Shown here piece by piece: positions 25,743-43,712 of a DNA stretch of 43,712 nt. Location: positions 1 to 43,712 of the forward strand of contig CAJOIU010000013.1 of NCBI GenBank assembly GCA_905234855.1, given 5' to 3'. The DNA comes from an uncultured Oscillospiraceae bacterium (GTDB taxonomy: Bacteria; Bacillota; Clostridia; Oscillospirales; Oscillospiraceae). The stretch's first letter is position 1, and every line of letters starts with the position of its first letter. The position numbers and the translations under genes are program-made. The notes under the pieces are model-generated. The model worked only from the letters and a program-made list of their open reading frames with translations, made no database searches and had not been told where the DNA came from.

Positions 25743-27341
25743 ATGAAACAGACCAGTAAGATCCTTGCGCTTGTGATCGCGCTGTGCATGGTTCTATCCC
25801 TGAGCGCCTTCGCCTCCGGCGAGGCGTCCGGCGGCGGCTCCGGCGGCATGGGAATGCCCGGGGGCGGCGGTTCGTCTGAGCCCGATTCCTACGACGCGGT
25901 GCTGGAGATCACCGAAGACACCGATCTCGACGGCGTTGCGATGGAGTCCGTGAACGGCGATGAGAACATTATCCATGTATTCGACGGCGCGACCGCCAAG
26001 ATCAGCAATTCCAGCTTCGTGAACGGCGGAACCGGCGGCGGCGGCGACTCGGCAAGCTTCTACGGCGTCGGCGCGACGCTGTTCGTTTCCGACGGCGAGA
26101 TGTATGTCGAGAATGTGGACATCGACTCCACTGTTTCCGGCGGCGCGGGCGTTTTCGCCTATAAGGACGGCGTTGCGTATGTTTCGAATGCCGATATAAG
26201 CACCACGCAGGGTTCTGCGGGCGGCCTCCATGTAGCGGGCGGCGGCACGCTGTATGCGTGGGACTGCAATGTTGAGACGCAGGCCGGCATGGCGGCGGCG
26301 GCGATCCGCTCCGACCGCGGCGGCGGCCTTATGGTCATCGACGGCGGCCGTTACGTCACGAACGGCGGCACCGGCGCTGTGTATGTCACGGCCGATATCT
26401 CGATCCACGACGCTTACCTCTATACCGGCGGCTCCGAGGCCGTGGCCATTGAGGGCAAGAACACCATCCGCCTGTTCGACTGCGAGCTCGAGGGTGACAT
26501 GATCGCGAACTCCATCAACGACAACAAGGTCTGGAACATCATCGTCTACCAGTCCATGTCCGGCGACGCGGATGTCGGCACCTCCCACTTTGAGATGGTC
26601 GGCGGCGAGCTGACCACCCATGCCGGCCCCATCCTCTATAATACCAACACCTCCAGCTATATCACCTTCAAGGACGTGGACATCACCCGCAATGAGGATA
26701 CCACTTACTTCCTGCAGGTGACCGGCAACTCCAGCTCCCGTACATGGGGCCGCGCGGGCGCGAACGGCGCAAACTGCATCTTCACGGCGGTGGAGCAGGT
26801 CATGCCCGGCGACGTGGTGTACGACACCATCTCGAACCTCGATTTCTATATGCTGGAGGGCAGCTCCCTTGAGGGCGCTATGAACTGCGACGACAGCTTC
26901 AACGGCGGCAACTCCGGCGACGGCATCGCGAACGTCTATATCGATGCCGACTCCGTCTGGACTGTGACCGGCGACTCTGTCATCACCGGCACTCTCTATC
27001 TCGAGGGCGCGGTGGAGAATGCGAAGATCGTTGACGAGAGCGGCAAGGTGCTGGCGGGCGACGGCGCGTTCACCGTGACCGTCGGCGCGCTGGAGACCAC
27101 CGTGGACGCTTCCGGCGCGGGCGAAGTCCCCGTCTGGGAGGATTACGCTGTGGAGAACCCCTTCGCGGAAGACGCCGCTTCCGGCGAGCCCTCCGGTGAA
27201 ACAGCTGCCGTTCCCGCGGCGGACGGCGGCGACGCCTCCGGCGAAGCCTCCAATATGCCCGACGGCTCCATGCCTCCTCCCCCTCCCGCTGATCTTGCTC
27301 CGGGCGAAGAGCCTCCCGGGGGCTTCGGCGGCATCGATTGA
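25743..27341 (+). CDS. Secreted parallel beta-helix-like protein A with SGEASG tag
   Basis: I do not recognise a named function. The 532-residue protein has a Sec signal peptide (1-24, ending AFA) whose predicted cut exposes SGEASGGGSGG. A Gly-rich linker then leads to a long repetitive region (about 50-410) with strands of the right-handed parallel beta-helix type, such as VAMESVNGDENIIHVFDG, TLFVSDGEMYVENVDID and GLMVIDGGRYVTNGGTG. A cap segment with SVWTVTGDSVITG follows, then a disordered C-terminus (about 470-532) rich in Ser, Gly, Glu and Pro with ASGEPSGE, ASGEASN and a PPPPP run. No LPXTG, SLH or transmembrane anchor is present, so anchoring, if any, is unknown. AGGA precedes the ATG. 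It has its own promoter and a strong terminator. Paralogues are B (32906-34897), C (41503-43368) and D (43533 onward). Confidence 0.85.
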   Translation: MKQTSKILALVIALCMVLSLSAFASGEASGGGSGGMGMPGGGGSSEPDSYDAVLEITEDTDLDGVAMESVNGDENIIHVFDGATAKISNSSFVNGGTGGGGDSASFYGVGATLFVSDGEMYVENVDIDSTVSGGAGVFAYKDGVAYVSNADISTTQGSAGGLHVAGGGTLYAWDCNVETQAGMAAAAIRSDRGGGLMVIDGGRYVTNGGTGAVYVTADISIHDAYLYTGGSEAVAIEGKNTIRLFDCELEGDMIANSINDNKVWNIIVYQSMSGDADVGTSHFEMVGGELTTHAGPILYNTNTSSYITFKDVDITRNEDTTYFLQVTGNSSSRTWGRAGANGANCIFTAVEQVMPGDVVYDTISNLDFYMLEGSSLEGAMNCDDSFNGGNSGDGIANVYIDADSVWTVTGDSVITGTLYLEGAVENAKIVDESGKVLAGDGAFTVTVGALETTVDASGAGEVPVWEDYAVENPFAEDAASGEPSGETAAVPAADGGDASGEASNMPDGSMPPPPPADLAPGEEPPGGFGGID

Positions 27342-27351
27342 TCTATAAATG

Positions 27352-27388
27352 AATCGGGAACGGATCGCGTATCCGTTCCCGATTTTTT
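27352..27388 (+). terminator. Strong terminator after beta-helix protein A
   Basis: AATCGGGAACGGAT pairs perfectly with ATCCGTTCCCGATT around a five-base loop, ending in TTTTTT. It also lies at the end of the convergent gene at 27405 and may slow that transcript, though there is no T run on that side. Confidence 0.95.
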
Positions 27389-27404
27389 GTTGCGCATTTT
27401 TAGT

Positions 27405-28079
27405 TTACCCCTGCACATAGCCCGTGGCGGTGACGGTGTCGAGGGTGACGCCGCTGTAGCTGCCGCCGTAGCGCCATGTGACGGTCATATCGCCGGCGGT
27501 GCCGCGGGGTACGGTGAGGGTCGTGTAAAACAGGGGGCTTTCCACTCGGTCGTCGCCTTCAAGGAAGATGCTGCGGGTGTCGGCGGCGGCGGAATACTCC
27601 GCAAATTCGATCTGCGCGCCCTGCCAGATATCCGTGAGCTGGAGGCTATAGGAGGTGACGGTGCCGGTGACGGCGATGACGGCATTGCCGCTGCCGTTGT
27701 CATAGGCGACCCATTCGATGTTCATATTCATGGCGGTGCCGGTATCCGAGGAAAAGGTTCCCTGCGCGATGACGGTGCCATAAGACGGGGTGGCGGTAGG
27801 CTCCGGCGTAGGAGACGGCGTTGGCTCTGCGGTGGGCGTGGGAGACGGCGCGGGGGTAGGCGTCGGCTCGGCCGTAGGTGCAGGCGCGGGGGAGGGGGTG
27901 AGCTCCGCCGGCTGCTCCGGGGCGGGGGTCACGATATGGAGCTCCGGCGACTGGGTGGCCTGCGGCTCCTTGGGGGCGGCGGCCTCCTGCGCCCGCTGGC
28001 GCGAGCAATGCGCCAGAAGGATCGCCTCCAGCAGCACGATGAAGATGAGAACGATGAGAGCAATGACACGCTTTTTCAT
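27405..28079 (-). CDS. Membrane-anchored protein with Pro/Thr linker and unknown extracellular domain
   Basis: A 224-residue protein with an N-terminal membrane anchor (about 5-25, VIALIVLIFIVLLEAILLA), a Pro/Thr/Ala/Ser linker of about 50 residues (about 50-99, repeats of PTPSPTP and PTAEPTP) and a C-terminal domain of about 120 residues, beta-rich (TVIAQGTFSSDTGTAMNMNIEW; SPLFYTTLTVPRGT; GVTLDTVTATGYV). I do not recognise the domain. Start: ATG at 28079, GGAGG eight bases upstream; an in-frame ATG 39 bases earlier is less likely. The linker is typical of surface proteins that must cross a peptidoglycan layer. It follows the LtaS-like gene after 47 bases on the same strand, so the two may act together at the cell envelope. 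Confidence 0.8.
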   Translation of the reverse strand: MKKRVIALIVLIFIVLLEAILLAHCSRQRAQEAAAPKEPQATQSPELHIVTPAPEQPAELTPSPAPAPTAEPTPTPAPSPTPTAEPTPSPTPEPTATPSYGTVIAQGTFSSDTGTAMNMNIEWVAYDNGSGNAVIAVTGTVTSYSLQLTDIWQGAQIEFAEYSAAADTRSIFLEGDDRVESPLFYTTLTVPRGTAGDMTVTWRYGGSYSGVTLDTVTATGYVQG

Positions 28080-28126
28080 GGGGATCGCCTCCGTGGGGTT
28101 TTCCCCATTATAGACCATTTTCCGCG

Positions 28127-29338
28127 CTATTGCAACTGCGCCTCGGCGCCGAACACCACGGCGAAATAGTTGTTTTCCATGACCTTGCGGGCGTAAGTGT
28201 ACCGATCATACACGAGCTGCGAAACGTCGCGGACATAGGCGGTGATCTCCGAGCTGTCGGCAAAGCAGTCCCGGGTCTGGCGGAAAATGCTCCCGGCGGC
28301 GTTATAGCTGCCCGCGTCCGTGACCCAGTCGGAATAGGCGCTGCCGTAAAGGCTCACGAGGGGCGTGACGGCACGCACACGGCCGGGTACATCGTTTTCG
28401 GCAAAAACATCCCGGCCGGAGAGAAAGCGGGAGTCGTATTCCACGCCGAAGAGATTCAGCAGCGTCGGCGTGATATCCAGCTCCGAGCATGGCTTATCGG
28501 AGGCAGCGTCCGCAACGGCGGAATTATATAGATATAGCTGAGCTCGCTGTCCGTCGGCGTCCGCCGTCAGAAGACAGATCGCCGTTGCGTCGAGCATACG
28601 CGCCTCGCGGAGTGTTTCGAGAAGATACGCGAGCGCCTCCGCGCCCTCTGCGTCCGGCCAAAGATAGAAGGCGAAAAAGCGATTCCTGTCCAGAAGCGCA
28701 GGCAGGGTGGCTTCCAGTGTTTCGAGCGCGGCTGTCTCGGTGACGAACACATTTTGAAAGCCCATGGCCTCATAGGCGGCGGTATGGGTCGGATCGGTGA
28801 TATAGGCGAAGCCGGTATAGCCCTCCTGTGCCAAGCACCGCGCAGGGGTATAGGGCAGATAGATGTCCTGCTCGGCCGTCCACAGGAGGGAGGCGGCGCC
28901 GTTCACCTTGGTGGGGACAAGGCCGGTGAGCAGCGCAAATTCCCGCCCGGCCATGCCCTGATACCAATCCGGTCGATAGACGAGGGAAATATCCGCTCCG
29001 CCACTGCGCAGGCGGCAGAGCGCCGGATCTGTGTGCCGGTCGGGCTTCGCGGGCGTCTGCCAAGCGTCCGCACAAATGAGGATCAGATTTTTGCCCCGCA
29101 GCGCGCCCGTCCATTCATTCTTGGCGGTGGGGGTGCGAAATAGGAAGTAGCCGTTCATATCCGCGAGGATCGCGCTTCCGGCGGTCTCTGGCACGAGGGA
29201 GAGACTGATATCGAGAATGTTATAGCCATAGCTGTGGGGATCGGCCATCACGGCCTGCGTCGGCTCGGGCAGAAGGGCACGGGCGGTCACGATGCCAAGC
29301 AGCAGCATGAGCAGCAGAAAAAAGATAAGCTTCCGCAT
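28127..29338 (-). CDS. LtaS/sulfatase-fold membrane protein with degenerate active site
   Basis: A 403-residue protein with one N-terminal membrane segment (1-25) and an extracellular domain that aligns with the catalytic domain of lipoteichoic acid synthases (LtaS/alkaline-phosphatase superfamily): KNLILICADAWQT at 83-95, EFALLTGLVPT near 133, a Tyr/Gly-rich middle, AICLLTADADG at about 253 and SELDITPTLLNLFGVEY, which matches the LtaS segment strongly. Key residues are lost: the metal Glu is Asp91, the catalytic Thr position carries Met129 (YQGMAGREF), the metal His after Asp260 is Ala261, and the other metal His is absent. It also lacks the five-helix N-terminus of true LtaS. It is therefore probably a non-catalytic relative, perhaps a regulator or scaffold. 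Start by GGGGGG before the ATG at 29338. No clear promoter seen in the gap to 29460. Confidence 0.78.
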   Translation of the reverse strand: MRKLIFFLLLMLLLGIVTARALLPEPTQAVMADPHSYGYNILDISLSLVPETAGSAILADMNGYFLFRTPTAKNEWTGALRGKNLILICADAWQTPAKPDRHTDPALCRLRSGGADISLVYRPDWYQGMAGREFALLTGLVPTKVNGAASLLWTAEQDIYLPYTPARCLAQEGYTGFAYITDPTHTAAYEAMGFQNVFVTETAALETLEATLPALLDRNRFFAFYLWPDAEGAEALAYLLETLREARMLDATAICLLTADADGQRAQLYLYNSAVADAASDKPCSELDITPTLLNLFGVEYDSRFLSGRDVFAENDVPGRVRAVTPLVSLYGSAYSDWVTDAGSYNAAGSIFRQTRDCFADSSEITAYVRDVSQLVYDRYTYARKVMENNYFAVVFGAEAQLQ

Positions 29339-29460
29339 GACAGTCCCCCCTTTTCCGAACGGTGCCTTATAAGAATGCGGCATTTCTGGAGCGAAACCGG
29401 GCGCAGTCTGTCGCTGAAGGAAATTATTCAGTCCCGGCGATTTTTTGCAGGGGAAACGGC

Positions 29461-29496
29461 AAAAAAAAGGGGAGCAGCCCGTTTCGGACTGCTCCC
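29461..29496 (-). terminator. Terminator of the feo operon
   Basis: On the minus strand GGGAGCAG pairs with CTGCTCCC and is followed by TTTTTTTT. It lies just after the FeoB-associated gene. Confidence 0.95.
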
Positions 29497-29502
29497 ATTG
29501 AT

Positions 29503-29682
29503 TCAGTTTCCGCGGCAGCTTTCGCTGAACTTGCAGGCGCTGCAGCCGCCGCATCCGCTTCCGCACTCGTCGCAGGTCTTGATCCTGCCCCGGACAAGGC
29601 CGCGGACGATCAGAACGATCAAGGCGAGGAGGAAGGCGGAGATCAGAATGGTTGCCGCGTTCGCGGCGAGCCATGACAGCAT
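29503..29682 (-). CDS. FeoB-associated Cys-rich membrane protein
   Basis: A 59-residue protein with one transmembrane helix (about 10-32, AATILISAFLLALIVLIVRGL) and a Cys-rich tail with CDECGSGCGGCSACKFSESC. It matches the FeoB-associated Cys-rich small proteins found behind feoB in Firmicutes, thought to aid ferrous iron uptake or assembly of the FeoB complex. The ATG at 29682 has GGAGG seven bases upstream; an in-frame start at 29706 is less likely. It is the last cistron of the feo operon, 64 bases behind feoB, just before the terminator. Confidence 0.9.
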   Translation of the reverse strand: MLSWLAANAATILISAFLLALIVLIVRGLVRGRIKTCDECGSGCGGCSACKFSESCRGN

Positions 29683-29721
29683 AAGGATCCCTCCCATAAG
29701 ATACACGGTGCTCAGGAGGCG

Positions 29722-29740
29722 CGGGAAGCGCCGCTTCCCG
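29722..29740 (-). other. Perfect hairpin between feoB and the small Cys-rich gene
   Basis: GGGAAGCG and CGCTTCCC form a perfect 8-bp stem around a one-base centre, 8 bases after the feoB stop. There is no T run, so it is more likely an mRNA-stability or processing element than a full terminator. Confidence 0.5.
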
Positions 29741-29746
29741 ATCGGA

Positions 29747-32020: not shown

Positions 32021-32120
32021 AAGCTGTCTTCTTTCTGTGCGGAATCACGCACCGTTGACTGCGCCGGATCGGCGGGCGCTTTGACTTAAATACTCGATCC
32101 TATTGAGACTTTTGAGACTT

Positions 32121-32348
32121 TTAGGGGATGAGCTCGACTTCGATCATTTCGCAGTCGGCCTTGCGGACGCTGAGCTCATAGTTGCGGGTGGTGATCTCAA
32201 TGGGATCGCCCAGCGGCGCCACCTTGCGGACATAGATCTGCTGACCCTTGGTGATGCCCATATCCATGATGCGGCGCTTCACGGGTCCTTCGCCATGGAG
32301 CTTCAGAACGCGGACGGTCTGGCCGACCTTAGCTTCTCGCAATGTCAT
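32121..32348 (-). CDS. feoA: FeoA family protein (second copy)
   Basis: A 75-residue SH3-like FeoA protein, thought to assist FeoB. It contains the typical LREAKVGQTVRVLKL, RIMDMGITKGQQIYV and APLGDPIEITTRNYELSVRKADCEMIEVE. The ATG at 32348 has GGGAGA seven bases upstream. It lies 59 bases behind the first feoA and 100 bases before feoB. The gap before feoB holds a tandem repeat of AAAAGTCTC (two copies) directly after the stop. Confidence 0.93.
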   Translation of the reverse strand: MTLREAKVGQTVRVLKLHGEGPVKRRIMDMGITKGQQIYVRKVAPLGDPIEITTRNYELSVRKADCEMIEVELIP

Positions 32349-32407
32349 GTGTCTTTCTCCCTTCTCCAGAATGATATATGCCAAAAAAGGTATAACAAAA
32401 GGAATTG

Positions 32408-32617
32408 TCAAACGGCGATCTTGACCGCCATCTCGCGGCTGATCGCCACACGGGTCTCCTTGATGATGACGATGATGTTTCCGTTCAGCTCCGAAACGAC
32501 GGTGACCGGCGTGCCGACGACAAAGCCGAGATTCTCGAGGAACTGGCGCGTTTCTGCGCTGCCGCCGACGCGGGTGATCAGGCTGCTTTCGCCGGGCTTG
32601 AGCAAGGTTAGCGGCAT
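32408..32617 (-). CDS. feoA: FeoA family protein (first copy)
   Basis: A 69-residue FeoA. MPLTLLKPGESSLITRVGG and ETRQFLENLGFVVGTPVTVVSELNGNIIVIIKETRVAISREMA follow the family pattern. It is only about one-third similar to the second FeoA, so the duplication is old. The ATG at 32617 has AGGAGG eight bases upstream. It is the first cistron of the feo operon, about 55 bases downstream of the predicted transcription start, and the operator boxes lie around that promoter. Confidence 0.93.
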   Translation of the reverse strand: MPLTLLKPGESSLITRVGGSAETRQFLENLGFVVGTPVTVVSELNGNIIVIIKETRVAISREMAVKIAV

Positions 32618-32641
32618 AAGCGATCCCTCCTGTGGCTGTTG

Positions 32642-32731: not shown

Positions 32732-32852
32732 CACCAAGGACATTTTACTCCTTCGAGCGTGAAAAGTCAAGCTGCGGCGGTCATTTCGGCAGATTGCAGC
32801 AAAACCGGCCAAAGGAATCGTAGATTGTGATTAGATTGTACAAAACGGCGAT
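32732..32852. other. Intergenic region between the feo promoter and the glycogen-operon terminator
   Basis: About 120 bases with no gene or clear motif. It is less GC-rich than its surroundings. I see only TTAGATTGTACAA-like AT-rich text near 32831, of no clear meaning. Confidence 0.3.
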
Positions 32853-32905: not shown

Positions 32906-34897
32906 TTACGCAGCCGGGAAAGCTTCGCCGGGGTGATTCGCTGCCATCCAGTCGGGATAATCCATCGCTCCGATGACGGGATTAATGTCGATGAACGGGG
33001 CAATGTAAGGGCTGGCGGCGGTATAGGTATCCTCCATGGCCGGGGTGCTGGACATAAAGTCGTCGGCAGCGATATAGCCCGCCACATAGTCGCGGTACTC
33101 GTCAAAGTGGGGGTAGCTGGAGGCGTCCAGTCCGGCGTTCATGCTGGCGTCGAAGCCCGCGGGCATATCGCCCATGGCCTCGTCCGCCACGGCGACCGAT
33201 TCGGCCTCGGCGGTGACGGCGGGGGTGACGATGATCTCGCCCTCCCAGACACCGCCGGCGGAAACGTCGGTCACATCGCCGTTCACGATAACGACGCCGT
33301 TCACGACGCCGCCCTGCTCCACGGTCAGCTTGTCGAGGTTGGAGTTCGCGGTGACGTTCCAGACAGAGGAGCCGTCGACGCTCATGGTGGAGAGGGTGCC
33401 CTCGCCGTCGAAATATTTCTCGGTATCGAGGATCCAGTAGCAGTAGCCGTCGGCCTTGGCGGCGTCGGACCACATGGCGTCCCACGCGGCCTTGTCGATG
33501 GTGACGTAAGCACCGTCCCAAGTGGAGTTCACGAGCTCCACGGCGGTGTTGCGCTGATAGTCGTAGTGATCCACATCGCCGGCGATGGCGCTGTCGGTGA
33601 CCGTCATGGTGACGAACTTCTCGCTCATATCGTCGGTGGCCTTCGCATAGCGGCTCATGGAGTCGGAGTTCAGCGCCGTCATGAGCAGTACGCCGGAGGA
33701 GCTTTCCGCGGTGACGTTCTTGAGGTCGATATCCGCGCCGGTGGATTTCACCAAGATGTTCGCGCCCTTGATAAGGTCGATATACTCCGCCACGGCGGGA
33801 CCGTAATCCACGCTCCAGTCGATGAGGGAGTTATTGGCGTCCAGTTCCGCGGTGGTGATGAGGTCGGTATCCTCGAGATCGATCACGGCCACGAAGTCGC
33901 CGCGCGCGCCGCCGCCGCCCATATCCGGGGAGTGGAGCTGGAAGTCGTTGCGGCCGGCCTTCACGAGGGAGCGGCCTTCGCCGTACTGCTCGGTGTTCTC
34001 ATAATCCGCGGGGAGATAGGCCAGCACGTCCGCGTCCGCCGCCGCGCCGCTGCGCATATGGATCTCGCCGTTGTTGGAGATGATGGCGCCCACCTCGGCG
34101 CTGTAGAGACGGCTGGCATAGAACCAGTCCACGCAGGAGGTGTCGGCATAGGTGCCGTAGCCGCCGTAGGCGGCGATAGCGTTGGAGTCGTAGCTGTAGA
34201 AGGTGAAGCCGTTCTGGGCGGAGTCGGTGGACATGGCGGCCCAGCCCTCGGTCACGACGGTGCTGCCGTAGTAATAGGTCTTCGACGTGCCGACGGACAT
34301 ATTGGCGCGGGCATAGCCGGAGATCAGAAGACCGAGGTTCGAGGGGGGATCGGCGATATCGGCGCTGTAGCCGTTGGGATCGCCGGTGAAGCCGGTCTGG
34401 GCGATGGTGGAATCGATGACCACCATGGTGCCGGTGCGCTCGCAGTCGACGGTATAGTTGCCGTTGCGGCCGCCTTTTCCGGCGTTGATGAGGGTCGAAT
34501 CCTTGATGGTGAGCAGGCCGTCCGTTACGGCGGCGATGCTGCCGCCTGCGGCGTTCGCGTCCACAGGAGCCGTGACGGATTTCGTGATGTTGGCGTTTGA
34601 GATGGTGTATTCGCCGCCTGTCACCTTAAAGCCGGTGGCGGAGAAATCGGTGATCTCCATCGTGATGCCGTCCGCGGCGGTATCGGTGATCGTGCCGCCG
34701 GTGACGGCAACGCCGTCGGTTTTGGTTTCGGTCAGACCGTCCGCCGTGATCTGATAGGCGGTGACGCCTGCCTCCGCGCTGGCGTTCATGCTCATGACCG
34801 TCTCGCTGCCGGAGGCCTCGCCGGAGGCGAACGCCGTCAGGCTCAGCGCCAGACAGAGGACCATGAGGATCGCCAGAAGCTTGCCGGTTTTCTTCAT
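32906..34897 (-). CDS. Secreted parallel beta-helix-like protein B with SGEASG tag (glycogen-operon member)
   Basis: I do not recognise a named function. The 663-residue protein has a signal peptide (1-24, ending AFA); the predicted mature start is SGEASGSETV. The body is a long beta-helix-like repeat region: TDGVAVTGGTITDTAADGIT, GEYTISNANITKSVT, GLLTIKDSTLINAGKGG. A central module is shared with protein C: SKTYYYGSTVVTEGWAAMSTDSA, then YGTYADTSC and SAEVGAIISNNGEIHM. The C-terminal cap SSVWNVTANSNLDKLTVEQG is again shared, and a 70-residue Ala/Ser/Asp/Tyr-rich tail with SYPHFDEYRDYVAGYIAADD follows. No sorting signal is seen. It starts 13 bases behind the glgP stop, with AAGGAG between them, so it is translated from the glycogen transcript. 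The ATG at 34897 is chosen on that ribosome site. Confidence 0.85.
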   Translation of the reverse strand: MKKTGKLLAILMVLCLALSLTAFASGEASGSETVMSMNASAEAGVTAYQITADGLTETKTDGVAVTGGTITDTAADGITMEITDFSATGFKVTGGEYTISNANITKSVTAPVDANAAGGSIAAVTDGLLTIKDSTLINAGKGGRNGNYTVDCERTGTMVVIDSTIAQTGFTGDPNGYSADIADPPSNLGLLISGYARANMSVGTSKTYYYGSTVVTEGWAAMSTDSAQNGFTFYSYDSNAIAAYGGYGTYADTSCVDWFYASRLYSAEVGAIISNNGEIHMRSGAAADADVLAYLPADYENTEQYGEGRSLVKAGRNDFQLHSPDMGGGGARGDFVAVIDLEDTDLITTAELDANNSLIDWSVDYGPAVAEYIDLIKGANILVKSTGADIDLKNVTAESSSGVLLMTALNSDSMSRYAKATDDMSEKFVTMTVTDSAIAGDVDHYDYQRNTAVELVNSTWDGAYVTIDKAAWDAMWSDAAKADGYCYWILDTEKYFDGEGTLSTMSVDGSSVWNVTANSNLDKLTVEQGGVVNGVVIVNGDVTDVSAGGVWEGEIIVTPAVTAEAESVAVADEAMGDMPAGFDASMNAGLDASSYPHFDEYRDYVAGYIAADDFMSSTPAMEDTYTAASPYIAPFIDINPVIGAMDYPDWMAANHPGEAFPAA

Positions 34898-34910: not shown

Positions 34911-37304
34911 TCATATGTGCCAGATGTTATCTGCATATTCCTGAATCGCGCGGTCAGCGGCGAAAACGCCGGATTCCGCGATATTCACAAGAGAGATGCG
35001 GGCGGCCGCCCGGGGATCGGCCATGGTGCGGTAAAGCTCCTCGTGGGCGCGGCGGAAATCAGCGAAATCCGCCAGCAGCATATAGGGGTCGCCGCCGAAG
35101 AGCAGGCCGCTCACAAGGTCGTGATAGCTCTTGCCGTCCGCAAAGCCCGCGCTGAAGCGATCCAGCACGGCGTGGGTGACGGGGTCGGAGTCGTAGTAGG
35201 AGCGGGGCTGGTAATGGGGACGCAGATCCTCCACCTGCGAGGCGCGCAAGCCGAACAGGAACATATTATCGTCGCCCAAGCGCTCGTACATTTCCACGTT
35301 TGCGCCGTCGAGCGTGCCGATGGTGATCGCGCCGTTCATCATGAGCTTCATATTGCCGGTGCCGCTGGCCTCCTTGCCGGCGGTGGAGATCTGCTGCGAG
35401 ATCTGTGCCGCGGGCATCAGCGTCTCTGCCATGGAGACCCGATAGTTTTCCGCGAAGAAGACCTGCAGCTTCCCCTTGCAGGCAGGGTCGGCGTTGATGT
35501 CCGCCGCGAGAGAGTTTATAAGCTCGATGATGCGCTTGGCGGTCACATAGCCCCCCGCGGCCTTTGCAGCAAACACGAAGGTGCGCGGCAGGAACACGGC
35601 GTTCGGATCGTCGTGCAGCCGCTGCTGCAGGCTTGCGATGAGCATGGCGTTCAGAAGCTGGCGCTTATACTCGTGCAGCCGTTTCACCTGCGCGTCCATC
35701 ACGGCGTCGGCGTCCAGCGCCGCGCCCTGCGCGTTTTTCAGCCAAGCGGCGAAAGCGCGTTTGTTCTGCAGCTTGATCTCGTTGAGCCGATCCAGTACGG
35801 CGCCGTCGTTCTCAAACCGGCGCAGGCTGCGCAGTTCCTCGGGACGGGTGCGCCACCCATCGCCGATAAGGTCGTTCACGAGGCCGGCAAGCGCGGGGTT
35901 CACCTGCTCGAGCCAGCGGCGGTGATCGATGCCGTTTGTGACGAAGGTATAGCGATCCGGGCGCAGGGAGCATACGTCGCGGAAGAGATCACTGCGGAGG
36001 ATCTCACCGTGGAGCTTCGATACGCCGTTTATCTTGAAGCAGACGGCCTGACAGAGATTGGCCATATGCACGCTCCCGCCGGAGAGGATGAGGCACCGCT
36101 CCACGCGGCTGTCGTCGCCGTGGAAATGCTCCCGCAGGAAGGCGCCCCAGCGGATATTGAACTCCCGGATGATCTGCCAGATGCGGGGCAGCAGCGACTG
36201 GACGAGACCCTGCGGCCACTTTTCCAGCGCCTCGGACATGACGGTGTGGTTCGTATAGGCGACGCTGGCGCGGACAATGGAGAACGCCTCGTCCCAGCCG
36301 AGGCCGTCCTCGTCCATGAAAATACGCATCAGCTCGGGGATGATGAGGGTGGGGTGGGTGTCGTTGATCTGCAGCACATGATGCTCCGCAAAGGAGCGTA
36401 CGTCGCCCCACGCCGCCCGGTGCTTCTTCACGATGTCCTGCGCAGTGGCGGACACGAAGAAATACTGCTGCTTGAGGCGCAGCTCCTTGCCCTGCGGATG
36501 GTCGTCCGCGGGATAGAGAACCTTCGTGATGACCTCCGCCATCGTGCGGTGCTCCATGGCCTGCACATACTGGCCGCCGGAGAAGAGGTACATATCGAGA
36601 TTCTCGGGGGAATGCGCCTCCCACAGACGCAGGGTGTTGATGCGCTCGGCGCCGTAGCCGGCGATCAGCATATCCCGGGGTACGGCCAGCACGCTCGTAT
36701 AGCCCGTCTGACGGGTGCGGCAGGTGCCGGTATAGTCCCATTCCTCCTCGACATGACCGCCGAAGCGCACCTCGCAGGTATCCTCATCCCGAGGGATCAG
36801 CCAGCCGGCTGCGCCAAGGCGCCAGTCGTCCGCCGTTTCCTTCTGGCATCCGTTTTCGATGACCTGCTTGAAAAGACCCAGCTCATAGCAGATGGAATAG
36901 CCCATGGCGGGGATCTTCAGCGTGGCCATGCTGTCGGAATAGCAGGCGGCGAGACGGCCGAGGCCGCCGTTTCCGAGGCCGGCATCCGGCTCGGCCTCGA
37001 AGATATCGGAGGGATCGCGTCCCATAAGGGTCAAGGCTTCGGCAAGCTCGTTCCAAACGCCGAGGTTATAGGCGTTCTTCATGAGGCTCCTGCCCAGCAG
37101 AAACTCCATGGAAAGGTAATGTACCTGCCGCTGGGGCGCGGTTTCGTTCTGCACGGCCTGCACGCGGCTCATGATCTCGCGGATGACCATGGCGGAGGCC
37201 TGAAATACCTGCGCGTCGGTGGCGCGTCTGCCGGTCACGCCGAAACGGGCGCAAAGCTTATCCTCGATGGCTGCGTAGAGTTCGTTTGCTGTGATTTCTG
37301 ACAT
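34911..37304 (-). CDS. glgP: Glycogen/starch/alpha-glucan phosphorylase
   Basis: Releases glucose 1-phosphate from the non-reducing ends of glycogen. The 797-residue PLP enzyme has the family hallmarks HYLSMEFLLGRSL (62-74), EPDAGLGNGGLGRLAACYSDSMATL (105-129), LQINDTHPTL (311-320) and the PLP site KEASGTGNMKLMMNGA with Lys653. GGAG lies about eleven bases before the ATG at 37304. It is 35 bases behind glgD and ends 13 bases before beta-helix gene B. Together with GlgC and GlgD it makes and mobilises storage glucan; no synthase (glgA) or branching enzyme (glgB) gene is in the window. Confidence 0.97.
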   Translation of the reverse strand: MSEITANELYAAIEDKLCARFGVTGRRATDAQVFQASAMVIREIMSRVQAVQNETAPQRQVHYLSMEFLLGRSLMKNAYNLGVWNELAEALTLMGRDPSDIFEAEPDAGLGNGGLGRLAACYSDSMATLKIPAMGYSICYELGLFKQVIENGCQKETADDWRLGAAGWLIPRDEDTCEVRFGGHVEEEWDYTGTCRTRQTGYTSVLAVPRDMLIAGYGAERINTLRLWEAHSPENLDMYLFSGGQYVQAMEHRTMAEVITKVLYPADDHPQGKELRLKQQYFFVSATAQDIVKKHRAAWGDVRSFAEHHVLQINDTHPTLIIPELMRIFMDEDGLGWDEAFSIVRASVAYTNHTVMSEALEKWPQGLVQSLLPRIWQIIREFNIRWGAFLREHFHGDDSRVERCLILSGGSVHMANLCQAVCFKINGVSKLHGEILRSDLFRDVCSLRPDRYTFVTNGIDHRRWLEQVNPALAGLVNDLIGDGWRTRPEELRSLRRFENDGAVLDRLNEIKLQNKRAFAAWLKNAQGAALDADAVMDAQVKRLHEYKRQLLNAMLIASLQQRLHDDPNAVFLPRTFVFAAKAAGGYVTAKRIIELINSLAADINADPACKGKLQVFFAENYRVSMAETLMPAAQISQQISTAGKEASGTGNMKLMMNGAITIGTLDGANVEMYERLGDDNMFLFGLRASQVEDLRPHYQPRSYYDSDPVTHAVLDRFSAGFADGKSYHDLVSGLLFGGDPYMLLADFADFRRAHEELYRTMADPRAAARISLVNIAESGVFAADRAIQEYADNIWHI

Positions 37305-37339
37305 ATAAAAAACGGCTCCTCTTTTTACTTTCTGCTCTA

Positions 37340-38455
37340 TTATACGGTGCTGCCCTTCGGAACGAGAATGGGCAGACGCTCCGTCCCGGCAAGGAAGCAT
37401 CCGGGGGTGATGACGGAATCCTTATCGGTGATGACGCATTTGAGCTGCGCGCCTGCCTGTACGACGGTATCCTGCAGGATAACGCAGTTTTCGAGCTTCG
37501 CGCCCTTCTCGATCTTGACACCGCGGAAAAGGACGCAGTTTTTGAGCTCGCCCTCCACATAGCAGCCGTCCGCCACCAGACAGTTCGTCACCTTGGCCGC
37601 GTCGCTGTAGTAGGTGCTGACCTCGGCGCGGTCCTTGGTGCGGATCGGGCGATCCTCGGGGAAAAACTGCGCCATAACGTCCTTCCGCAGCATTTCCATG
37701 CTGGCCTTGTAATAGTCCTGCGAGGTACGGATGCGGCGGAAATATCCTTCATGGATATAGATGCCGACCTTGCCGCCTTCGGCGAGATAATGCTCCATGG
37801 CGTCCCGGTGGAAGTGACGGAAGCCGCCGTCGCCGCAATACGCCATGAGGGAGAGAAGAAGATGCTTCTTCAGGATATAGATCTCCGTGCAGCCGAGGCC
37901 GTCCGTCATCCGTCCGTCGGAATAGCACAGCCGCGTGGAGAAGCCGTCCCCGTCCGGGAGATAGCGGTGGTGGGGGACGGAGGCCGTCTGATCGACGCAG
38001 ACGGCGGTGATCTCCGCGCCGGAGCTGCGATGCTGCTCCGCCGCCGCGGAGAGATCGACATTGCCGACATAATCGCCGGTGGAGAGGACGATGTCCTCAT
38101 GGGGGATCTCCTCGATATAGGATTTGACGCTCAAAAGCGCCTCCATGCAGCCGCTGAAGCTGCCGGCATGGGCTTCGGGCAGACCGAAGGGCGGCAGCAG
38201 ACGCAGACCGCCGTTGCGCCGGGAAAGCCCCCAATCCTTGCCGTTCGACAGGTGATCGAGCAGGCTTTGATAGTCCCGCTCCATGATGACGCCCACATCC
38301 CGGGCGCCGGCGTTAACCATGGAGGAAAGCGCGAAGTCGATCAGGCGGTAACGTCCGCCGAAGGGGATCGACGCGCTGTTGCGGTGCATGACAAGGTCGC
38401 GAAGCTCCGGCTCCGCGCGCAGCGTGTAAAGGATGCCGTGAAGATCGTTTTTCAT
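37340..38455 (-). CDS. glgD: Glucose-1-phosphate adenylyltransferase regulatory subunit GlgD
   Basis: A 371-residue GlgD paralogue of GlgC. The sugar-binding segment [22 protein letters not shown] is clear, but the nucleotide-binding GGxGxRL is replaced ([14 protein letters not shown]) and the [11 protein letters not shown] segment becomes [12 protein letters not shown]. That is the known state of GlgD, which is inactive alone and modulates GlgC in Firmicutes. The C-terminal left-handed helix ([20 protein letters not shown]) is present. Its ATG overlaps the glgC stop by four bases (ATGA), giving translational coupling and equal subunit supply. Confidence 0.95.
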
Positions 38456-39651
38456 TTCGAGCCCTCCACATCGTTATAGAGCATCGCGTTCGGCCCGACG
38501 ACCGCTCCCGCGCCAATGGTGATATCGGGGCCGCAGGTGGCTACGCCCCACTCTTCCGTTCCGTCCGGCACCGTGCCGAGCTTCGCGCCGCGGCATACCC
38601 GGGCGTTTTCGCCCACGATGGCAAAGCGCACCTCCGCGCCTTCCTCCACCACCGCGCCGGGCATCAGCACGCTGTATTCCACGGTAGCGCCCTTCTCCAC
38701 CGTTACTTGGTTCGAGAGGACGCTGTTGAACACGCTGCCCTCCACGATGCAGCCCTCCGTCACGATGGAGTGCTTGATATCCGCCTCCGAGCCGATGACC
38801 TGCGGCGGGCGGATCGGACTGCGGCTGAGGATCGGCCATGCGGGGTCATAGAGGCCGATGAGCTCCGGCGTCAGCATATCCATGTTGGCGTCCCAGAGAC
38901 TGGAGATTGTGCCCACGTCACGCCAATAGCCCTCAAAGCGGTAAGGCCAGAGCTTTTCACCGGCGTTCAGGAGCCGGGGGATGATGTTTTTGCCGAAATC
39001 GTATTGGCTGTTCGGGTCGGCATCGTCGTCAATGAGCGCCTGCCGGAGGGTCTTCCATGTGAAGATGTAGATGCCCATGGAGGCCAGATCGCTCTTGGGA
39101 TGCTTGGGCTTTTCCTCAAACTCGCAGATATAGCCGTCCTCGCCCAAGTTCATCATGCCGAAGCGGCTCGCCTCCGCCAGACTTACTTGGATGACGGCGA
39201 TGGTGCAGGCGGCGCCTTTTTCCTTATGCTCCTGCAGCATCTTGGCATAGTCCATCTTATAGATGTGGTCGCCGGAGAGGATGAGGACGTATTCCGGATC
39301 CCATTCGTCGATGAAATCCAGATTCTGATAGATGGCGTTGGCGGTGCCGGAGAACCAGTTGCCTTTCTCCCCGGCGGACATATAAGGCGGCAGAATGAAA
39401 ACGCCGCCGTCGTCGCCGTCGAGATCCCACGCCTGTCCGCTGCCGACATAGGAATTGAGCTTCATGGGGCGGTACTGGGTCAGCACGCCCACCGTGTCGA
39501 TGCCGGAGTTGACGCAGTTGGAGAGCGGGAAGTCGATGATGCGGTATTTCCCGCCGAAGGGCATGTTGGGCTTTGCCACGTTGGCGGTGAGGGCGTAGAG
39601 CCGGGAACCCTGCCCGCCTGCCAGCAGCATGGCAATACATTCTTTTTTCAT
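38452..39651 (-). CDS. glgC: Glucose-1-phosphate adenylyltransferase catalytic subunit
   Basis: Makes ADP-glucose, the committed precursor of glycogen. The 399-residue enzyme has the nucleotide loop [14 protein letters not shown] (8-21), [21 protein letters not shown] (30-50), [12 protein letters not shown] (about 146) and the C-terminal beta-helix ([38 protein letters not shown]). A GGAGGC ribosome site lies upstream of 39651. It is 38 bases behind pth and overlaps glgD. Allosteric effector preferences cannot be read here. Confidence 0.97.
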
Positions 39652-39689
39652 CGGGGAGCCTCCTCTTTGTGAATCATCCGGGGTTGCGG

Positions 39690-40292
39690 TTACGAATGGT
39701 GTTTTTTGTTGTATTTTCCCATGGCCTCTTCCGGGCCATGCAGGATATATTCCCTGACGGCGTCTGCCGCTTGGGCGCAGGCGGCGGAGAAATCCTCCCA
39801 GTCTTGGTTCCGGGGAACGCTCAGCACCCAGTCGATCTGCTCCTGCCCGCGGTCAGGGGGCGCGCCGACGCCGATCCTGATCCGGGGGAAGGCGTCCGTC
39901 CCCAGATGCGAGATGATGCTTTTGAGTCCGTTGTGCCCGCCGGCGGAGCCCTTGGTGCGTATGCGAAGGCTGCCGCAGGGCAGGGAGATATCGTCCGAAA
40001 CCACCAGCACGCGCTCGGGCGGGGTCTTATAGAAGCGCGCCGCTTCGCCCACGGCCTGGCCGGATTCGTTCATGTAGGTCTGAGGCCTCATGACAAGCGC
40101 GGTCTGCCCGTCCGGCAGCTCCCATTTGCCGGTGAGCGCGTGGAAGCGCAGCCGGTTGGCGGAAACGCCCTCGGCCTTGGCCAGCGCCTCGGCGGCGAGA
40201 AAACCGGCGTTATGGCGTGTGCCGGCGTATTTCGGGCCGGGATTGCCCAGAAAGACGACGAGCCATTGGAGTCCGGCGGATCGGCGGAACAT
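39690..40292 (-). CDS. pth: Peptidyl-tRNA hydrolase
   Basis: Hydrolyses peptidyl-tRNA released during translation. A 200-residue bacterial Pth: [22 protein letters not shown] gives the catalytic His27 and the tRNA-binding Asn. [21 protein letters not shown] and [18 protein letters not shown] complete the active site. The ATG at 40292 overlaps the prs stop by one base (TGATG), so the two are coupled; a TTG one codon earlier is also possible. The prs-pth pairing is common in Firmicutes. The following glgC is 38 bases away with no terminator between. Confidence 0.96.
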
Positions 40293-41254
40293 CAATTGAA
40301 GAGGTCGGCCATCGACTCGTCGTTATAGATGCGCTCGATGGCGCGGGCGAACAGCGGCGCAACGGAGAGATAGCGGATCTTTTCCACCTGTGGGCGATCC
40401 TTCGGATAGGGGATGGTGTCCAGCAGAAGCAGTTCCTCCAGAACACTCTCTTCCACGCGCTCCAGCGCCGGGCCGGAGAGGACGCCGTGGGTGGCGCAGG
40501 CATAGACCTTGTTCGCGCCGCCGATCTCCTTGATAGCCTTGGCTGCGCCGCAAAGAGAACCGGCGGTGTCCACCATATCGTCGAGGATGATCACATTCTT
40601 GCCCTCAACGTTGCCGATGAGGTTCATGACCTCGGACTGGTTGGCGCGCTCACGGCGCTTATCCACGATGGCAAGTCCGGTGCCGAGCTTCATGGCGAAG
40701 CTGCGGGCGCGGGCGACACTGCCCACGTCGGGGGACGCCACGATCAGCTCCTCGTTGTTCGCGCCGAAGCGCTCGAGGTAATGATCGGCAAAAAGCTTGC
40801 CGCCCAGCATATGGTCAACGGGGATATCGAAGAAGCCTTGGATCTGCGAGGCGTGGAGGTCCATCGTGAGGACGCGGTCGGCCCCGGCATGGGTGATGAG
40901 ATTTGCTACGAGCTTGGCGGAAATGGGATCACGGCTCTTTGCCTTGCGATCCTGCCGGGCATAGCCGAAATATGGGATCACGGCGGTGATGCGTCCGGCT
41001 GAGGCGCGGCGCATGGCGTCGATCATGACGAGCAGTTCCATGAGGTTGTCGTTTACCGGGCCGCAGGTGGACTGGAGCAGGAAAACGTCCGTGCCGCGAA
41101 CGGGTTCGTACACCGAAACGGAGCATTCACCGTCGGCAAACTGGGTGCAGACCGCGTTGCCGAGCGGGATGCCCAGACTGTCGCTGATGCCCTGCGCCAG
41201 CGCGGGATTGGAATTGCCCGCGAAGAGCTTGATCTCTTTTCCGTGAGATATCAT
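40292..41254 (-). CDS. prs: Ribose-phosphate pyrophosphokinase
   Basis: Makes PRPP for purine, pyrimidine, histidine and NAD synthesis. The 320-residue enzyme has IKLFAGNSNPALAQ, DGECSVSVYEPVRGTDVFLLQS, the metal-binding AVIPYFGYARQDRKAKSRDPISAK, MDLHASQIQGFF and the PRPP loop VIILDDMVDTAGS. The ATG at 41254 is chosen for GAGGGGG upstream; the in-frame ATG at 41311 has none. First gene of the leftward operon prs-pth-glgC-glgD-glgP-B. It shares a 248-base intergenic region with the divergent gene C. Confidence 0.96.
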   Translation of the reverse strand: MISHGKEIKLFAGNSNPALAQGISDSLGIPLGNAVCTQFADGECSVSVYEPVRGTDVFLLQSTCGPVNDNLMELLVMIDAMRRASAGRITAVIPYFGYARQDRKAKSRDPISAKLVANLITHAGADRVLTMDLHASQIQGFFDIPVDHMLGGKLFADHYLERFGANNEELIVASPDVGSVARARSFAMKLGTGLAIVDKRRERANQSEVMNLIGNVEGKNVIILDDMVDTAGSLCGAAKAIKEIGGANKVYACATHGVLSGPALERVEESVLEELLLLDTIPYPKDRPQVEKIRYLSVAPLFARAIERIYNDESMADLFN

Positions 41255-41354
41255 TGGTTTTTGTCCCCCTCTATCTATATATGGTATTATTTGGAAGCTT
41301 ATCTTCGGCATTATGCTGTCAGCAACCGAAAAAGCTTAACAATCATGTCAACTT

Positions 41355-41383
41355 ATTATATCAAACGCACCGGCCAAATGAAA
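41355..41383 (-). promoter_or_regulatory. Candidate promoter of the prs operon
   Basis: On the minus strand TTTCAT, 17 bp, TATAAT, with an extended -10 (TGA before TATAAT). The -35 is weak and the -10 strong. A second good -35 (TTGACA at 41390-41395) is at a non-functional distance. Confidence 0.5.
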
Positions 41384-41427
41384 GACCTTTGTCAAACTTT
41401 CTGCATGGGATTTCGCACAAAAACAGC

Positions 41428-41456
41428 TTGTGTATTGTTTGACGCTGTATTATAAT
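41428..41456 (+). promoter_or_regulatory. Promoter of beta-helix protein C
   Basis: TTGTGT, 17 bp, TATAAT. It lies 46 bases before the ATG at 41503, back to back with the prs promoter about 45 bp away. Confidence 0.65.
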
Positions 41457-41502
41457 GTGTTTATATTTACCTGCAGATCAATGAGAAAAGGGGAGAAGGG
41501 AC

Positions 41503-43368
41503 ATGAAAAGAAAGCTATTTGTTCTGCTGCTTTGTCTGTGTTTGTGCCTCGGCTTGAGCGTAACGGCGGCCGCCTCGGGCGAGGCCTCCGGCGGCGCTTC
41601 GGGCGGACCGAGTGGCGGAGCCTCCGCCGTGTTTGCCTATACCGTTTCGGCGGACGGCGCGGCAGAGGACGGCGAGGCGGAATACACCCTTTCCGGCGAG
41701 ATGACCGCGGCAGGAGCTTCCGGGTTCGATTTCCGGGGCGAGAACGCGGGCCTTGTCGCTGTGCTGGGCGATGATGCCACGGAAGGCGCGGTCTCGGTGA
41801 AGCTCGGCGGCGACGGGAAGAACTACGACGCGGCGGCGCTGGATATCTATCCCGCCGCGCAGGCGAAGCTGGGCTTCAAGAGCTTTGATTCGAAGATGGA
41901 CGCGAGCGCCGGGCCGCAGGCCATGGCGCGGGGCGGCGCGTATCTGGAGCTCGATGGCGTGTACGCTACGGGCAGCACCGGCATCGTCACCGCCGGCAGC
42001 GATTCCGACCGCTACAGCGGCTCGGACGATTCCGCGTATATCGACACCGTGGTGGTGCTGCGGGACAGCTATCTCGAATCCGACACGGGCAGCGATATCG
42101 CCGAGGTCATGTGGCCTCACGCCACGAGCCTCATGGTTCGCGGCTCCAACCGTACCGCGCTTTCCGTCGGCGAGAGCGAAACGTATTACTACGGCACGGG
42201 CGTCGTGGTGGACGGCTGGGCGGCCATGGCCACCGACTCCGCCGTGGGCATGGGACTCGATATGGTGGCCTACAACAGCTATGCCGCCACCCGGCTCGGC
42301 GGCTACTGCTCCTATTCCGACAGCCGCTGCAGGGATTTCCTCTACGGCACGACGTATGAATCCGCCGAATACGGCGCGATCATTGCGAATTTCGGCGAAT
42401 TGTATGTCCTCAACACCGACGACGCGGCGGTGGATACGAACGTGATCCGCGCTTCGAGCGGCGCGGCGAATCTGCCTGTCCGGGCGGCGGTCGATCCGCT
42501 GGCCTTCGCCGAGGAGAGCGATATCGCCGCGGGCGTTCCGTCCTCCGTGGCGGGCTTCCGCAATGCGGTCATGCTGCATGTTCCCGACCTGATGCACGGC
42601 GGCGGGAGGATCTCCGACGCGCCCGGCGTCCTTTACGTTAAGGGCTCGACCATCGGCACTTATGAGGCGCTGGCGCCCGCGGACTACGCCGACGGCGGCT
42701 ATAAGGCCTCTTGGCTCGAAAAATCCACCGAGGCGAACTACGCCTATCTCGAATACACCATGGGCGCGGCGATCCTCATCCGCAGCGACAACGCCTTCAT
42801 CCATCTGGAGGATGCGCAGGTCGATTCATGGACGGGCGTTCTCATTCAGTCGGCGCTCAATGCCGACGCGAACGGCAACTGGATCGGCGCGGACGAGGAG
42901 ATCAAGGATACCATCGGCATCGACGTTCTGGCGGACGGTACGACCGCCCTTGTCGGCAATATCAACCATGAGGACTATCACCGCGCCATGGACATCACGC
43001 TGGCGGACGACGCGAGCCTCACGGGTGATATCTTCACCGGCACCGTGGATACATGGCACGCGAAATTTGCCGATTACCTCGACTCCGGCGCGAATTTTAT
43101 CCGCGATCTTGACGGCTATGACACCGTATGGGGCACGAGCGTCACGCTGGCCGATAACGCGGTCTGGACGGTCACGGAGCAGTCGAACATCACCGCCCTC
43201 ACCGTGGAGCCGGGGGCGACCCTTAACGGAGCCGTCACCGTGAACGGCGCGGCGGTCGACGTTTCCGGCGGCGGAAGCTGGGCGGGCGATATCGTCATCA
43301 CCGCTGCGGCGGGCGGCGCGTCCTCAGACGGCTCCGGCGAAGCGTCCGGCGCGGGCGGAAACGGGTAA
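41503..43368 (+). CDS. Secreted parallel beta-helix-like protein C with SGEASG tag
   Basis: Function not recognised. The 621-residue protein has a signal peptide (1-24, ending AAA); mature start SGEASGGASGGPSGGAS. The body is beta-helix-like: EYTLSGEMTAAGASGFDF, GAVSVKLGGDGKN, YLELDGVYATGSTGIVTAG. It shares with protein B the module SETYYYGTGVVVDGWAAMATDSA, the following RLGGYCSYSDSRCRDF and SAEYGAIIANFGELYVLN, and the cap NAVWTVTEQSNITALTVEPGAT. It ends with SSDGSGEASGAGGNG, repeating the tag at the very C-terminus. GGGGAGA lies about six bases before the ATG. It has its own promoter and a terminator-like hairpin follows. Cys residues in the shared module (YCSYSDSRC) might form a disulphide. 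No anchor is visible. Confidence 0.86.
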   Translation: MKRKLFVLLLCLCLCLGLSVTAAASGEASGGASGGPSGGASAVFAYTVSADGAAEDGEAEYTLSGEMTAAGASGFDFRGENAGLVAVLGDDATEGAVSVKLGGDGKNYDAAALDIYPAAQAKLGFKSFDSKMDASAGPQAMARGGAYLELDGVYATGSTGIVTAGSDSDRYSGSDDSAYIDTVVVLRDSYLESDTGSDIAEVMWPHATSLMVRGSNRTALSVGESETYYYGTGVVVDGWAAMATDSAVGMGLDMVAYNSYAATRLGGYCSYSDSRCRDFLYGTTYESAEYGAIIANFGELYVLNTDDAAVDTNVIRASSGAANLPVRAAVDPLAFAEESDIAAGVPSSVAGFRNAVMLHVPDLMHGGGRISDAPGVLYVKGSTIGTYEALAPADYADGGYKASWLEKSTEANYAYLEYTMGAAILIRSDNAFIHLEDAQVDSWTGVLIQSALNADANGNWIGADEEIKDTIGIDVLADGTTALVGNINHEDYHRAMDITLADDASLTGDIFTGTVDTWHAKFADYLDSGANFIRDLDGYDTVWGTSVTLADNAVWTVTEQSNITALTVEPGATLNGAVTVNGAAVDVSGGGSWAGDIVITAAAGGASSDGSGEASGAGGNG

Positions 43369-43382
43369 GGAAACACAGCTCA

Positions 43383-43413
43383 AACGACCCGATCCTTGGC
43401 GAATCGGGTCGTT
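43383..43413 (+). terminator. Terminator-like hairpin after protein C
   Basis: AACGACCCGAT pairs perfectly with ATCGGGTCGTT around CCTTGGCGA. The T run after it is poor (CGCGCTTTCC), so read-through into the next family gene is possible. Confidence 0.6.
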
Positions 43414-43532
43414 CGCGCTTTCCGGGGGACGATGCCTGCTTCCCCCTAAATACCCGGTACGAGAACCGAATGGATGATTATACCGTTCGACCGGGAGAAC
43501 CCCGGCGGAAATATTTGAAAGGAGAGCGAAAC

Positions 43533-43712
43533 ATGACCCATCAGATCCGCAAAACACTCAGTATCCTGCTGCTCATATGCATGGCGGCATCGCTGCTGTC
43601 TGCGGGAGGCTTCGCGTCCGGCGAGGCTGCGGAGGAAACGGCGGCAGAGGCGCTGCCTGCGGCCATCGAAGCGGCGGAAGAGCCTGCCCCGGTGGAGGAG
43701 GAAGCCGCGGGA
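43533..43712 (+). CDS. Start of a fourth secreted family member D (cut by the window end)
   Basis: From the ATG at 43533 (AAAGGAG eight bases upstream) the reading frame stays open to the last base, giving 60 residues. A signal peptide (MTHQIRK, then ILLLICMAASLLSAGGFA) is followed by SGEAAEETAAEALPAAIEA, that is, the same AFA/SGEA cut site, then a Glu/Ala-rich stretch instead of the Gly-rich linker. The gene is the next one after C on the same strand; the 164 bases between hold the hairpin at 43383-43413 and no clear promoter. The rest lies beyond the window, so the body cannot be judged. Confidence 0.7.
   Translation, partial: MTHQIRKTLSILLLICMAASLLSAGGFASGEAAEETAAEALPAAIEAAEEPAPVEEEAAG

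Follow-up and report, generated by a model that had tools for sequence, protein, structure and literature searches.

The window analysed here, a stretch of 43,712 nucleotides on contig C13 of the genome of an uncultured Oscillospiraceae bacterium (G000: 1.79 Mb in 44 contigs, 82.6% completeness), carries four genes, A to D, for secreted proteins whose predicted mature chains begin with SGEASG or, for gene D, SGEAAE, a start referred to below as the tag. The four starts lie where a preliminary description of the sequence had placed them, translation putting SGEASG at residue 25 in A, B and C, and SGEAAE at residue 29 in D. Comparisons were made with 35 genomes from one genus (congeners), 10 of which are termed tagged and 25 untagged, the tagged ten being incomplete assemblies (64-97% complete). 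The features of the four genes are as follows, signal peptides and cut sites being predictions from a simple rule.

25743-27341, forward strand: gene A, a secreted protein of 532 residues, predicted right-handed beta-helix
25743-25814, forward strand: predicted Sec signal peptide of A, 24 residues ending AFA, called by rule; MKQTSKILALVIALCMVLSLSAFA then SGEASG
25815-25832, forward strand: mature N-terminal tag SGEASG of A, from translation and genome pattern count; the predicted local distance difference test score (pLDDT) is below 50 for residues 13-48
27177-27251, forward strand: C-terminal linker of A built on the same tetrad (ASGEPSGE...ASGEAS); pLDDT below 50 for residues 477-532
27285-27338, forward strand: C-terminal signature of A, PADLAPGEEPPGGFGGID; 14 proteins have such an end, and its profile matches all 10 tagged genomes and none of the 25 untagged ones
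32906-34897, reverse strand: gene B, a secreted protein of 663 residues, member of the expanded family and homologue of C
34826-34897, reverse strand: predicted Sec signal peptide of B, 24 residues ending AFA, called by rule; MKKTGKLLAILMVLCLALSLTAFA then SGEASG
34808-34825, reverse strand: mature N-terminal tag SGEASG of B, from translation and genome pattern count
32909-33115, reverse strand: C-terminal segment of B, YPHFDEY...MAANHPGEAFPAA, its similarity to other proteins judged by eye
41503-43368, forward strand: gene C, a secreted protein of 621 residues, homologue of B
41503-41574, forward strand: predicted Sec signal peptide of C, 24 residues ending AAA, called by rule; MKRKLFVLLLCLCLCLGLSVTAAA then SGEASG
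41575-41592, forward strand: mature N-terminal tag SGEASG of C, from translation and genome pattern count
43333-43365, forward strand: C-terminus of C, SGEASGAGGNG, the tag motif at the opposite end, from translation
43533-43712, forward strand: first 60 codons of gene D; predicted signal peptide of 28 residues (...LSAGGFA), mature start SGEAAE

For C, a first crude predictor placed the cut two residues earlier and a later one gave the start at residue 25. Gene D, too short within the window, was kept outside the tagged-protein counts; it runs into N just past window position 43712, and an A-like frame (37% identity) lies beyond the N in contig C13. The N run breaks D within a EEPAPVEEEAAEAAEE-like repeat, and is probably an assembly gap at that repeat.

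Pattern counts conducted on G000 demonstrated that ASGEASG occurs at 18 sites, as against one for the reversed pattern; by frame, 12 are positioned 22-26 residues downstream of a start Met, and the other six are C-terminal or inter-domain. The G000 protein set, drawn from the window and 19 stretches picked around tags, comprised 32 proteins of the signal peptidase I type, 24 of them starting S[GSD][ED], with 11 predicted lipoproteins kept apart; two tagged proteins (L036_7948 and L038_7423) fell outside the 32, a loss attributed to a crude lipobox filter, and were included in the later B/C-family set. Within the 24 tagged mature proteins, SG[ED][APF]S was recorded 22 times at +1 to +12, nine times in the last 40 residues and six times elsewhere, the corresponding expectations from shuffled sequences being 0.01, 0.01 and 0.25. 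With 15 of these 37 occurrences outside +1 to +12, the motif is not restricted to the free mature N-terminus. It was also present 19 times, in some cases in predicted lipoproteins, among 711 other frames of at least 250 residues, a set that contains two tagged proteins lost to the filter together with frames that are possibly not genes. When 20 further stretches of G000 were picked elsewhere, which by construction avoid strict tag sites, none of their 11 signal-peptide proteins was tagged.

The tetrad corresponds to a 12-base unit, and tandem SGEASGEASGEA runs occur, for example in L237 and L240, both of which would suit a local DNA bias whereby GC-rich, slippage-prone 12-base repeats (GCC TCC GGC GAG) survive in tolerant disordered ends of proteins. 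Such an origin is nevertheless highly improbable: the reversed-pattern control yielded one site against 18, the motif keeps to a set position relative to the cleavage site, the 25 untagged congeners show no excess of the pattern, and the 18 sites use 12 different DNA sequences, in which Ser is encoded by TCC, TCG, TCT or AGC, a diversity more in keeping with constraint at the protein level than with the copying of a single block of DNA.

The mature start was examined more widely using 40 stretches from three other tagged genomes, chosen by B/C-family homology only, which provided 43 frames; one (L258), in which no signal peptide was found, was excluded, leaving 42 starts that contain orthologues. 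Their consensus is [ST]x[ED][AP]SGEASG with a variable +2: residue counts were S36/T5/D1 at +1, G21/S10/D5/E5/N1 at +2, E37/D4/F1 at +3, A32/P5 at +4, S32 at +5 and G33 at +6, and S[GSDE][ED][AP] was satisfied by 32 of the 42. The tag is thus not exactly SGEASG in general, and across species is [ST]x[ED][AP]SGE. In 20 B/C-family proteins thinned at 50% identity (median 33% identity over the 71 of 190 pairs aligning at E 1e-20), information was high from -3 to roughly +11 with a four-residue periodicity, amounting to 2.0-3.1 bits at +1 and +3 to +6 and 1.63 bits at +2, and had fallen by +12 to around the level of random columns (mean 0.69, maximum 1.30). A-F-A precedes the cut in this set, with F in 16 of the 20, and is followed by S18/T2 at +1 and E17/D3 at +3. 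The claim that the tag is more conserved than the sequence that follows it was therefore upheld. Residues just after a signal peptidase I cut can reportedly influence processing (Musik 2019, cited in PMC6579943); general preferences of that enzyme alone would presumably not lead one to expect a recurring SxEASGEASG with its confinement to 10 of the 35 congeners.

That confinement was apparent from the signal-peptide-context pattern A-x-A-S-G-[DE]-[AP]-S-G, present at 8-21 sites in each of 10 of the 35 congeners and at 0-1 in the other 25, with the reversed-pattern control at 0-2 in any genome. Among 300 genomes of the family, 18-45 sites were recorded in four of the six members of the genus drawn, and 0-2 in each of the rest, bar one with five sites, four of them overlapping in one stretch; among 391 genomes of the class, G000 had 13 sites and every other genome no more than two. 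Given these background counts in the sampled family and class, the tag is, within sampling, characteristic of part of a single genus. A search of the genome and its relatives, as originally proposed, had a divided outcome: the tag does extend across G000 and 10 of the 35 congeners, while the remaining 25 and the sampled family and class stand at background. In two untagged congeners none of the signal-peptide proteins (0 of 3 and 0 of 4) was tagged. Relatives of A in two untagged congeners start otherwise (L130, L134), and at their C-terminal ends the A relatives of untagged congeners (L130, L132, L133, L134 and L140) have long MDNGxTPPEMPQGG-type repeats. Full-text literature searches for the letters SGEASG and FGGID, together with topic searches, revealed no description of the tag as judged by titles and the starts of abstracts, and it is on those searches that we regard it as undescribed.

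The preliminary description held that the proteins differ after the tag, a statement that stands for A versus B and fails for B versus C. The latter are clear homologues (35% identity over 411 columns, E 2e-50), and 14 members of their family align at a mean column identity of 25%. For A versus B, BLAST aligned only the first 30 residues well, 20 of the 30 being identical (67%) with the signal peptide included. A was not among the matches to the B/C core profile, and the 99.9% returned by hhalign for A against the B/C alignments is not decisive, since the shared N-terminus sits in both. Single-linkage clustering of 54 proteins from five genomes gave clusters of 25, three and two plus singletons; the cluster of 25 was held together by the B/C family, with A joined only via L042_17098 (34% over 379), and L041_14457 and L040_12508 only via a C-terminal module described below.

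Profile A1 of the B/C family, at E 1e-6, gave at least 29-37 matches in each of the 10 tagged genomes and 0-4 in the 25 untagged ones, the weak matches possibly resting on the signal peptide and tag columns that A1 includes; among the matches listed, those at E 1e-77 or better numbered at least 10 per tagged genome and none in untagged genomes (best 5.7e-70). The tagged ten are thus the genomes with the B/C-family expansion, the tag tracks that expansion, and part of the sharing is descent. Descent might even account for the whole, the tag being a functionless remnant of the signal peptide and N-terminus of one ancestor, copied as the family expanded or as a signal-peptide unit set before other domains, as the 20 residues of 30 shared by A and B, with nothing else of note aligned, would also allow. 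This we consider unlikely: +1, +3 and +4 stay fixed in the 20 thinned proteins while the sequence from +12 is near random, Ser codons switch between TCN and AGC, and the motif recurs at C-termini.

The tag is, furthermore, carried by unrelated folds, namely a BD-FAE-like esterase, Peptidase C26 and a separate cluster of three proteins. The tagged esterase-like protein (L037; PF20434 above cut-off) is unrelated, and its relatives in other tagged genomes start SGEATGE, SDEATGE, SDEAIGE, SEEATGE, SDEASGE, SEEASGE, SGEASAE or SGEASVE, one other having SSEESE. The Peptidase C26 protein L272 (PF07722, E 6.1e-36) combines a signal peptide with an SSEASGEA start and a PPGGFGGID-type tail; L273 and L274 are near-identical and of the same layout, as is L279 in sequence, its start being lost at a contig edge. 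The three large tagged proteins of the separate cluster (L154:9576-11990, L032:9673-12702 and L043:6710-9277) gave no Pfam match over cut-off.

Neither Pfam nor NCBIfam provided a family for A, B or C, which sets them apart from known beta-helix proteins, and a sequence search of the PDB returned no relative of A up to E 1; the B/C-family profile matched PDB entries weakly (best 6bea_A, UpaB, E 0.0031). Modelling was undertaken for A and not for B or C: AlphaFold2, supplied with five sequences, predicted strands over residues ~52-438 at a mean pLDDT of 66.9, with 13-48 and 477-532 below 50. The best Foldseek match to this model was 2iou_G, pertactin (E 2.1e-3, template modelling score 0.29), followed by PL3 pectate lyase and tailspikes, none being below E 0.001. 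A right-handed parallel beta-helix is thus a tentative prediction for A, with pertactin, PL3 pectate lyase and tailspikes as the nearest solved structures.

Two kinds of conserved C-terminal end were encountered. The first, a tail of the form PADLxPxxEPPGGFGGID, closes 14 fetched proteins that are distinct in their last 60 residues and end FGGID, A among them. A profile of ten such tails matched every one of the 10 tagged genomes, at 1-6 places apiece, and none of the 25 untagged congeners. Four of eight fetched places are the near-identical Peptidase C26 copies (L272, L273, L274 and L279), and the carriers scanned gave no Pfam match over cut-off outside the C26 domain. The second, a module of ~65 residues with the pattern ..FPAEMLYxGML..MTFEEFAAQY or ..EIPAFDPNL and helical as far as can be read from its sequence, forms the C-terminal end of 11 B/C-family proteins among the 63 distinct ones (66 less three duplicates), is present in the A orthologues L027 and L029, forms repeats in L041_14457 and L156, and is weakly matched in the esterases L116 (E 4e-5) and L121 (E 9e-6). 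Its profile matched all 10 tagged genomes, 6-12 times apiece, and none of the 25 untagged, and the carriers scanned provided no Pfam name for it. The loci concerned are as follows.

Tail, beta-helix proteins and secreted Peptidase C26: window 27285-27338, L007/L049, L050, L135, L137-L139, L141, L161, L249, L251, L252, L256, L257, L272-L274, L276-L279
Module, beta-helix proteins, esterases and stand-alone repeats: L041:14457-15332, L042:12236-14500, L027:10001-11743, L116, L121

By class of end, the 63 distinct B/C-family proteins comprise eight with the tail, 11 with the module, 16 with an SGEAS-type end and 28 with none of these. Judged by eye, L233 and L261 also carry the last part of the C-terminal segment of B, with L247 showing a looser version, and the module profile gave no match to that segment. 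Ends can evidently be swapped: A of G000 has the PPGGFGGID tail, and its 85-87% identical orthologue in genome G305 (L027) has the module.

Taken together, these data indicate that exported proteins probably share a modular layout in which a flexible spacer particular to this lineage, with S-G-E-[AP] as its basic tetrad, makes its first appearance as SGEASG. The spacer would sit directly after the signal peptidase site and be reused between domains and at C-termini, in the proposed order Sec signal peptide (usually A-F-A), (S-x-E-A-S-G-E-A)n spacer, folded domain, SGE[AP]SG linker and, often, a C-terminal end that may be either the ~65-residue module or the PADLxPxxEPPGGFGGID tail, the two being apparently interchangeable. 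In the ten genomes this layout would be common to the B/C-family expansion, to beta-helix proteins of the A type and to certain secreted enzymes of unrelated kinds. Support for a spacer comes from the presence of the motif at both ends and in linkers against negligible shuffled expectation, and from the low-confidence tag and C-terminal stretch around the strand-rich core of A; the tag accordingly has the look of a common linker more than of a label that addresses proteins by their N-terminus.

What was observed is the motif, where it sits, how it is distributed, the architecture of its carriers and the sharing of ends by unrelated folds; the functional steps that follow are all inferred. The N-terminal spacer would keep the cleavage site small, acidic and unfolded, thereby giving signal peptidase I access before the domain folds, and may also contribute to solubility; its Ser and Thr residues might be O-glycosylated in the manner of other bacterial linkers; and it would be the C-terminal module, not the N-terminal tag, that serves for docking, whether at the surface or with a partner.

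A number of results weigh against this proposal. Family relatives without the tag exist (L048_13899 and L156_14597), an A orthologue (L028/L127) has SGGPGGASG in its place, the esterase L118 starts AEEAAP, and 28 of the 63 B/C-family proteins have, as noted, no tail, module or SGEAS end. The first 30 residues shared by A and B without any domain alignment would fit the copying of a signal-peptide-plus-tag unit as well. The signal peptides and cut sites are rule-based predictions, the tail, module and A1 profiles were all built from tagged genomes only, and A1 carries the signal-peptide and tag columns. Lastly, the distribution of the protein mannosyltransferase family PMT_2, considered below, lends no support to a dedicated system for glycosylating the linkers, other transferase families lying outside that test.

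An alternative, put forward in the preliminary description, places the signal in the free mature N-terminus itself, a dedicated factor reading SxEASG and then attaching, modifying or routing the protein. Strong conservation directly after the cut that is gone by +12, the carriage of the tag by unrelated enzymes, and the want of an LPXTG-like end on tagged proteins would all accord with such a factor. The last point had been anticipated and was confirmed: [LIN]PxT[GAN] was not found in the last 60 residues of any of 24 tagged G000 proteins or of 66 beta-helix proteins (63 distinct), only one of the 24 and two of the 66 had a hydrophobic stretch close to the C-terminal end, and no SLH match was obtained among A, B, C and 15 further proteins, other tagged proteins lying outside that scan. 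The free N-terminus as signal was not borne out, however, and is decidedly unlikely: the same motif recurs at C-termini, between domains and inside linkers, +2 is variable and +1 may be Thr, some relatives lack the tag, and in predicted lipoproteins the motif is internal or terminal (for example L039 near 6790 and L176 near 10801).

As for the suggested search for a co-occurring enzyme, two candidates were tried and neither tracks the tag. Sortase is present in 34 of the 35 congeners whether tagged or not, and PMT_2 in 33 (9 of 10 tagged, 24 of 25 untagged); both were rejected as co-varying factors, and such distributions regardless of the tag also weigh against a factor reading the N-terminus.

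With regard to the spacer reading, Ser/Thr-containing low-complexity linkers were indeed found between domains of secreted proteins, and the best-described analogue found is provided by the linkers of Caldicellulosiruptor. According to PMC6151902, the linkers of Caldicellulosiruptor bescii CelA are glycosylated, deletion of the GT39 gene Cbes_1864 is described, and a GT39-type enzyme is the modifier. As in CelA, low-complexity linkers here join modules of secreted proteins, and that report places Ser near CelA domain borders; it gives CelA linkers as mainly alternating Thr/Pro, whereas those considered here consist of Ser/Gly/Glu/Ala tetrads that occur also at the mature N-terminus. A further difference is that PMT_2 does not track the tag here.

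In many secreted proteins sorting or docking depends on C-terminal modules, those of the LPXTG, PEP-CTERM, type IX CTD and dockerin systems being established examples. The tail resembles these in being a short conserved C-terminal end found on unrelated folds within one lineage, and differs from LPXTG systems in that LPXTG-like motifs are absent and hydrophobic C-terminal stretches few. Being longer, more fixed and common to unrelated folds, the tail and module appear better candidates than the N-terminal tag for a recognition or address signal. It is conceivable, if on balance doubtful, that the ten genomes hold an undescribed surface-display or complex-forming system in which unrelated folds share the export spacer and one of two interchangeable C-terminal address ends, each read by a lineage-specific receptor or enzyme, the whole being dockerin-like or CTERM-like and unrelated to any known system. 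If the reading proposed here holds, exported proteins of the lineage would be recognisable from their ends, and the two C-terminal candidates would replace the N-terminal tag in the hunt for a new attachment or docking mechanism, with the split of 10 versus 25 within one genus offering a clean comparison for a partner gene. Should the ends prove to be flexible linkers only, they would constitute a clear case of a lineage-wide linker mimicking a sorting signal.

The genes between B and C, for glycogen phosphorylase, GlgD, GlgC and ribose-phosphate pyrophosphokinase (34911-39651 and 40292-41311, both reverse strand), are those of ordinary metabolism. Elsewhere in G000, a minus-strand frame of 571 residues at L047 (C27 near 21523), flavoprotein-like by appearance and with no signal peptide of this type called, ends in ...YVSASGEASGGPS. 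Relatives of A were located on five named contigs, four of them labelled Oscillospiraceae (three from red deer) and one labelled Parasporobacterium at 56% identity, and the lineage may have its origin in the gut or rumen.

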